NCBI RefSeq assembly: GCF_001984155.1
Contig: NZ_MTQO01000053.1
Span: forward strand, 248,001-312,000
Origin: Actinosynnema sp. ALI-1.44
GTDB lineage: Bacteria > Actinomycetota > Actinomycetes > Mycobacteriales > Pseudonocardiaceae
Direction of reading: 5' to 3'
DNA length: 64,000 nt
Numbering within the stretch: position 1 is the stretch's first letter; every line of letters begins with the position of its first letter. Position numbers and translations under genes: made by a program. This document shows positions 25,411 through 33,899 of the stretch, one piece after another. Below the pieces are notes generated by a model. It saw nothing but the letters and a program-made list of their open reading frames with translations, was not told the DNA's origin and made no database searches.

Positions 25411-25490
25411 CCCGCGATCGGTCCACGAGACCCACCAGAGCCGGATTTCCAGGTGGCCGGGGCGGCGCGGTGTCGGCCGAACGCCGGAAG

Positions 25491-26249
25491 TTTTCTCCCA
25501 GACCAGGTCAGTTGGACCGGGCGCCCTGGCAGAAAAGCCGCGGGTCCGGCGGGCCGGACTCCGGGCGGCCGAGTGGTCGGCGCCGCGAGTCGTGATCTTT
25601 CTGGACGGGGTGGTCGCCTCGACCGAAGGGGTGGCGGAGAAACCCAGGCGGCGGTGGAGCTCGTGGCGCGATGCTTTCTGGACGTGGGAGTGACCTGGGC
25701 CGAGCGACCTGGCAGAAAGGATCCGGCGGCGTCCGCACCGGCGGCAGCCGGGGCAGGCGGTGCGGTGCGACGTGGGATCCGGAGCCGATCTTTCTGCAGA
25801 GCCGGTGGGCCGGGGCGTCCGGGGTCGGCAGAAACCTCCCGGCGCGGGCGTCGCGGAGTTCCCCTGTCCGAAGGACTAAGGCCGGGCCGGTGATCGGCCG
25901 AAGATCATGGGGCGGAGCGCGGGCCGCCGCCGGGTGCGCCCGGTGCCAGGAGTTCCGGCTGGCCGCGCCGCCTGGCCCTCAGGCCGTGCACCGGAAGGTT
26001 TCTCCGACAGCGGGGTGGCTCAGGCTCGGACCCTTCCCAGAAAGATGTCGACGCTGCCGGGCGAGGTCGGAGCCCCACCCGAGCATCGCGGACCGCCGCA
26101 GCGCGTCCGAAGTCCTGGCAAGCGTTTGCGCCGGGCCTTGGGTGCCGAAACCGGAGCGGGATGCCGAGGTGGGGTGAACGGACGCGGCCCGGACAGCGGT
26201 CGCGGAGTTTTCTGGGTGGGTGGCTGGGCTCAGGGACGGCGCCAGAAAA
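25491..26249. repeat. Array of ~45-bp elements with inverted TTTCT...AGAAA ends
   Basis: Six elements: 25491-25536, 25598-25642, 25674-25719, 25791-25834, 25999-26043 and 26208-26249 (lengths 46, 45, 46, 44, 45, 42). Each begins TTTCT or TTTTCT and ends AGAAA or AGAAAA. The best arms are TTTTCTGG/CCAGAAAA (sixth) and TTTCTGC/GCAGAAA (fourth). A seventh, degenerate TTT...AAA pair lies at 26124-26149. Start-to-start distances are 107, 76, 117, 208 and 209, so they fit a loose period near 100. The interior is GC-rich and poorly conserved. No gene is credible in this spacer. Confidence 0.75.
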
Positions 26250-26328
26250 GGTCGCGACAGGCGGGGCGGAGCGGACCGGTCACCCCCGGACGGAGCAGAG
26301 GCCGGCCATGGCTGTTCCGGCCATGCGA

Positions 26329-26355
26329 AACGGGCAGGCGCGTGGCCTGCCCGTT
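26329..26355 (-). terminator. dnaA terminator hairpin
   Basis: Perfect 11-bp stem AACGGGCAGGC / GCCTGCCCGTT with a 5-base loop, 12 bp after the dnaA stop. Read on the minus strand it is followed by TTTCG-like sequence, a weak T-run. Confidence 0.7.
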
Positions 26356-31024: not shown

Positions 31025-31040
31025 TGTTTCACGTGAAACC
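31025..31040. other. parS site (perfect palindromic core)
   Basis: TGTTTCACGTGAAACC matches the ParB-binding consensus, with the 14-bp palindrome GTTTCACGTGAAAC intact. It lies between the khpB terminator and rsmG. Confidence 0.93.
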
Positions 31041-31104: not shown

Positions 31105-31120
31105 GGTTTCACGTGGAACA
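31105..31120. other. parS site overlapping rsmG start
   Basis: GGTTTCACGTGGAACA, one mismatch in the palindromic core. It covers the GTG (31113) that could start rsmG. Confidence 0.82.
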
Positions 31121-31803: not shown

Positions 31804-31819
31804 TGTTCCACGTGAAACT
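31804..31819. other. parS site before parA
   Basis: TGTTCCACGTGAAACT, one mismatch in the core, 20 bp after the rsmG stop and immediately before parA. Confidence 0.85.
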
Positions 31820-33883: not shown

Positions 33884-33899
33884 TGTTTCACGTGAATCA
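33884..33899. other. parS site after parB
   Basis: TGTTTCACGTGAATCA, one mismatch in the core, in the gap between parB and the convergent ligase gene. Confidence 0.8.

Follow-up and report, generated by a model that had tools for sequence, protein, structure and literature searches.

Between oriC and dnaA, Actinosynnema sp. ALI-1.44 carries an array of six elements of the form TTTCT-N30..35-AGAAA (positions 25492-26248; five of 44-45 bp and one of 40 bp; Table 1). Judged from sequence, these elements are probably (at a probability of about two in three) long, two-fold symmetric double-stranded DNA sites for a dimeric or oligomeric protein that acts at the origin. The window, which is the whole stretch of 64,000 nucleotides that was analysed (G000:C50:248001-312000), belongs to a genome of 11.7 Mb that is designated G000; other G-numbers denote the genomes compared with it, and the genus set comprises eight genomes (G000-G007). 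The dnaA and dnaN genes were both assigned by Pfam and are separated by a spacer of 1.8 kb.

Table 1. Coordinates of the array elements and their neighbours in the window.
Feature	Start	End	Strand	Remarks
dnaN	23414	24550	-	Opposite side of oriC; Pfam DNA_pol3_beta domains
oriC	24682	25401		Five DnaA boxes (0-1 mismatch); between dnaN and array
oriC palindrome	25026	25063		Outer ends as in elements
Element 1	25492	25535		TTTCT-N34-AGAAA, 44 bp; oriC-proximal; exact pattern; ortholog in G005
Element 2	25598	25642		45 bp; exact pattern; aligned with G005
Element 3	25675	25718		44 bp; exact pattern; aligned with G005
Element 4	25791	25834		44 bp; exact pattern; aligned with G005; top profile score of window
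Element 5	25999	26043		45 bp; exact pattern; aligned with G005
Element 6	26209	26248		40-bp variant closest to dnaA; exact pattern; weaker profile match
dnaA	26367	27911	-	514 aa; 3' end toward array; Pfam Bac_DnaA 2.3e-77

An earlier note on this DNA had described, in positions 25480-26260, 14 T or A runs of at least three bases each that strictly alternate between T and A, and all of these runs are confirmed. Six of the seven run pairs have the TTTCT...AGAAA form, as had been stated, and the seventh (26125/26148) holds no element. The alternation itself is present, but the odds of 1 in 3432 attached to it are a post hoc statistic, and chance was therefore assessed with independent controls. 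The lengths reported for the elements (46, 45, 46, 44, 45, and 42 bp) are reproduced by counting each T and A run in full, with the exception of element 3, which measures 44 rather than 46 bp. A regular repeat spacing of about 100 bp is not borne out, as centre-to-centre distances are irregular (106.5, 76.5, 116, 208.5, and 207.5 bp). A half-site separation of about 40 bp, proposed to be near four helical turns, agrees with half-site centres that lie about 39-40 bp apart, but this distance amounts to about 3.75 turns, which makes the argument loose. The oriC palindrome has the TTTCTGG/CCAGAAA ends that had been reported, yet it spans 38 bp, is near-perfect, and holds a DnaA box. It is also found in G002 and G003 and, with one mismatch, in G005; it is possibly related to the elements and is counted separately from them.

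The array is real and lies far beyond chance. In G000, TTTCTN{32,36}AGAAA has eight matches, of which five lie within the array, whereas its reversed control has none. The 3' flanks of dnaA were compared in 87 genomes (eight of the genus and 79 others of the family); in these spacers, 73 of the 105 TTTCT-to-AGAAA pairs that are 10-120 bp long measure 43-46 bp (44 bp, 43 pairs; 45 bp, 19; 43 bp, six; 46 bp, five). Pairs of 43-46 bp are rare for the control word orders AGAAA-to-TTTCT (1/38), TTTCT-to-TTTCT (0/23), and AGAAA-to-AGAAA (1/41), and for the reversed control words (0/18 and 0/43). A similar density in random sequence, which the earlier note had named as grounds for giving up the pattern, is not seen: shuffled spacers yield 0.05 elements versus 73 observed. 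Outside the spacer, G001, G003, G005, G006, and G007 have three to six exact matches per genome (control pattern, 0-2), so that single exact matches elsewhere are background and clustering is the special part.

Concentration at the origin was also examined with R1, a sequence-only profile for which 64 of the 68 unique elements were used. In the eight genus genomes, every R1 match below E=0.03 falls inside the spacer 3' of dnaA; outside it, matches start at E=0.038 and extend to 1. One exact match outside the origin is common to G000, G005, and G006; in G000 and G006 it falls within long open frames, and R1 gives it no score in locus L069. When R1 was applied with stricter filters to 249 genomes of the family, 48 genomes in 14 of 46 genera had matches at E<=0.01, where about 2.5 genomes are expected by chance. 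Among the matches listed (44 genomes, E to about 0.0014), all are located no more than about 1.35 kb from the dnaA 3' end. Of the remaining four genomes, G066 has elements beside dnaA. Exceptions to origin confinement are weak matches, as in G097, where the match falls outside the dnaA slice; the matches of G511 and G519 are also weak, with no position assigned. Together, G097, G511, and G519 represent three of the 14 genera. Since these elements served to train R1, its matches in the family are not an independent discovery of them, but their location, which forms no part of the model, is. The genome-wide search recommended in the earlier note thus finds the pattern concentrated at the origin, both by exact matches in G000 (5/8) and by R1. 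In the overlapping samples of 394 genomes of the class and 397 of the order, R1 matches outside the family occur only in G181, G614, and G879 (E 1e-4 to 1e-3, with about 0.8 expected by chance), and no dnaA is present within the slices of 8.5-10 kb around them; these matches were rejected as true elements and are taken as chance.

Within one actinobacterial family, the elements occupy the dnaA 3' flank, on the side of oriC that faces dnaA. Exact elements are present in the same spacer in six of the eight genus genomes; G002 has two degenerate elements, and G007 has none between dnaA and oriC, where the stretch is short. In the family, 26 of the 87 dnaA 3' spacers (12 of 39 genera) contain elements, and with the addition of 23 further slices, chosen for a profile match nearby or in the same genome, exact elements are found in 13 genera at one to six per slice. 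Copy number thus ranges from one to six exact elements, and up to eight if one mismatch is allowed. Saccharopolyspora erythraea NRRL 2338 (G019) has three, and the array is absent from Amycolatopsis regifaucium (G022), Actinosynnema mirum (G028), and Saccharothrix espanaensis (G114). The array is therefore dispensable, a point against the protein-site reading: two of the eight genus genomes have it in degenerate form or not at all, and these three named species lack it. The class and order samples and the named dnaA loci contain no credible case outside the family: among the 55 named dnaA loci, of which about 50 come from other families, elements occur only in a Saccharopolyspora. A tandem-pattern search of the 397 order genomes matched six genomes, and the match in G000 is the array.

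Comparison between G000 and G005 shows that the ends of the cis-element are constrained and conserved far above their surroundings between two species. All six elements align between these genomes in the same order and orientation. Identity is 70/72 in the 6-bp ends, 149/190 in the interiors, and 441/618 between elements (Fisher test versus between-element sequence: ends, P=6e-8; interiors, P=0.06). Conservation of ends and spacing in relatives, which the earlier note had looked for, is thus observed, in six of eight genus genomes and in the peak at 43-46 bp. Among 61 cluster representatives, the length classes are 44 bp (28), 45 bp (26), 43 bp (5), and 46 bp (2). Their pooled halves read R-A-N-B-TTTCT-G (the TTTCT bases being fixed by the search pattern used for collection), followed by about 12 bp of low information and then by G.YC at the dyad. 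The centre of the site is a weak GC-rich dyad, G.YC meeting GR.C, with A/T tracts about two turns to either side.

Each element has two outer half-sites (consensus RANB-TTTCT-G) that face each other, with 43-46 bp, mostly 44-45 bp, from TTTCT to AGAAA. A dimer or higher oligomer may grip both half-sites of one site, and neighbouring copies may cooperate. The sites are clustered at the origin and scarcely found elsewhere; such a protein is therefore likely to have an origin-specific role, whether it organises or marks the origin domain or modulates DnaA-oriC assembly, rather than a role in ordinary gene regulation. No origin-proximal gene tracks the array among the ORFs conserved between G000 and G005 in 40-80-kb slices of six genomes (array present in G019 and G063; absent from G007, G022, and G028), and this comparison yielded no candidate for the protein.

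The inverted ends could instead pair within a strand. Hairpins formed through TTTCTG/CAGAAA, either as small RNAs or as cruciforms or lagging-strand hairpins, are an unlikely basis of the array. When 124 unique elements were folded on both strands, the end stem formed in 183 of 248 strands versus 160 with shuffled interiors (mean z -0.51), and end stems are therefore possible but not clearly what selection keeps. An end stem predicts that the variable positions should covary. Variable arm position 6 shows no excess pairing (39/68 versus 39.9; 40/61 versus 38.6), and offset -2 pairs in 12/61 versus 17.0. In the third covariation set (the 61 cluster representatives of the 124 elements), three of 27 offsets pair above shuffles at P<0.05, the best of them adjoining the arm (offset -1, 31 versus 20.8, P=0.002 uncorrected; offset 9, 28 versus 19.9, P=0.011; offset 13, 24 versus 18.1, P=0.037), and four of 27 pair less than shuffles (P>0.95), with 1.4 expected by chance on each side. 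Three of 13 offsets (-1, 6, and 8) had reached P<0.05 in an earlier set of 68 elements, and covariation about the dyad centre (41 elements of 44 bp, 18 of 45 bp) gave P<0.05 in one of 18 offset tests. The compensatory arm changes that the earlier note had sought are thus mostly absent, apart from the three offsets in excess. RNAalifold predicts 0 pairs for 64 elements, a scan at Rfam gathering thresholds has no match in the spacer and finds only two tRNAs in the window, and a 6-bp A/T-rich stem would have to close loops of about 33 nt, which is long. Variation in the two arms is largely independent, as expected of a degenerate half-site, so that neither an RNA nor a cruciform stem is favoured. 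Between the two possibilities raised in the earlier note, protein half-sites and hairpin RNAs, the former is thus favoured by origin concentration and by the conserved ends and spacing.

Terminator-like matches, defined by a GC-rich stem, a loop of 3-8 nt, and then a T run, number four in the spacer versus 1.1 expected, and none uses the two ends of an element as its stem. All four have a T-rich element end as their tail, belonging to element 1, 3, or 6, and elements 2, 4, and 5 provide none; stems are located at 25468-25487, 25723-25741, and 26183-26204, with tails from elements 1, 3, and 6. Directly after the dnaA stop, a hairpin (GGGCAGGC...GCCTGCCCGTTT, 26327-26355) is kept in G000, G001, G004, and G005; it is a possible terminator ahead of the array and is missing from the output of the terminator scan.

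In G004, the interior of element 6 (28 bp) is inverted: scored against G000, G001, G003, and G005, it matches at 23-26 of 28 positions when inverted versus 8-12 directly. The interior in G006 is probably inverted as well, less clearly than that in G004 (18-22 inverted versus 13-17 direct; direct match to G004, 22/28). In the oriC tree, the sister of G006 is G001 (support 95/95), which is not inverted, so that at least two flips or a reversal are required if both G004 and G006 are inverted. The inversion fits a symmetric site that is indifferent to orientation, and also fits hairpin-mediated flipping, as template switching on a hairpin would give. Together with the dyadic layout, this species-level inversion might also point to sites of a recombinase or resolvase at the origin, or to remnants of a mobile element there. 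Such an origin of the array is nevertheless highly improbable, given that interiors vary from copy to copy without dispersal, that the plasmid collection has no DNA similar to the 927-base query region, and that the six elements are collinear and in the same orientation in G000 and G005. A MITE or insertion sequence was rejected since there is no dispersal and the interiors are not near-identical, the direct repeats in the array being three families of two copies each with 77-87% identity over 18-30 nt. REP/BIME elements were rejected as well, as only three exact matches lie outside the array in the 11.7 Mb of G000 and R1 matches are concentrated at the origin.

A general architectural factor (gyrase, HU, or an IHF-like protein) or intrinsically bent DNA could also shape the origin through these elements, a proposal that gains from the origin location, from the A/T tracts placed about two turns from the GC-rich centre, and from a possible helical phasing. 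The phasing is weak and suggestive: edge-to-edge gaps favour multiples of about 10.4 bp with a phase near zero (P=0.024, 38 gaps), and centre spacing gives P=0.094 (38 gaps), both after correction for the choice of period and for common ancestry; the uncorrected phasing has a nominal P of 0.001. Such phasing would also suit the protein-site reading. Five end bases per side (fixed by the search pattern) and a ruler of 44/45 bp exceed the specificity that gyrase, HU, and IHF-like proteins require, and the sites are rare elsewhere in the genomes; we give this proposal little credence.

Returning to sites for an origin-acting protein, the elements can be compared with several known systems. Like the DnaA-box clusters of oriC, they are clustered repeats in the dnaA-dnaN spacer, but they differ in sequence, and TTRTCCACA boxes (0-1 mismatch) are not enriched inside them (10 of 50, versus 11.7 expected by length). 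They resemble the parS sites of ParB in being origin-proximal palindromes, but differ in sequence and length. The parS-like sites are also separate: the 14-mer GTTTCACGTGAAAC (0-1 mismatch) occurs in the window only at 31026, 31106, 31805, 33885, and 60002. The first four (31026-31039, 31106-31119, 31805-31818, and 33885-33898; one exact, three with one mismatch) form a parS-like cluster upstream of dnaA. Plasmid iterons are likewise repeated sites beside an initiator gene, but the elements are irregularly spaced and are not direct repeats; iterons were rejected, as there are no tandem direct repeats of one sequence and the interiors differ.

The matS and maoS sites of Escherichia coli are short. 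The elements differ from them in being dyads of 44-45 bp clustered within about 1.35 kb of dnaA. The likeness lies in confinement to one region of the chromosome and, for the elements putatively, in being read by a dedicated protein, and by this analogy they would work most like a domain-restricted site system. The matS/MatP and maoS/MaoP systems are named in one article (PMC5441646). Passages of two others (PMC4210621, PMC3469384) describe no such elements, and the statement in the earlier note that no described system is like this one agrees with searches of an open-access library, a scope that most subscription journals fall outside.

The control and placement of actinomycete origins beyond DnaA and ParB are, to our knowledge, poorly known. 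The broader proposal, that a dedicated protein on the 44-45-bp dyads organises the origin or gates initiation as an undescribed origin-marking system of one actinobacterial family, is tentative, with odds slightly below even. If this proposal is true, the elements would join DnaA boxes and parS as a third class of origin site. For an antibiotic-producing family that includes the erythromycin producer, they offer a cis-element that is precise, conserved, and testable, and a handle for finding the protein.

Two further features lie within the array region. The block GATCTTCGGCCGATCA...GGCCTTAGTCCTTCGGACAGGGGAACT (25847-25925) is strongly conserved between G000 and G005, and its exact words are absent from the other six genus loci. 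The palindrome GCAAGCGTTTGC at 26118-26129, which we take to resemble a PurR/LacI-like site, occurs in the same spacer in five of the eight genus genomes, in either orientation.
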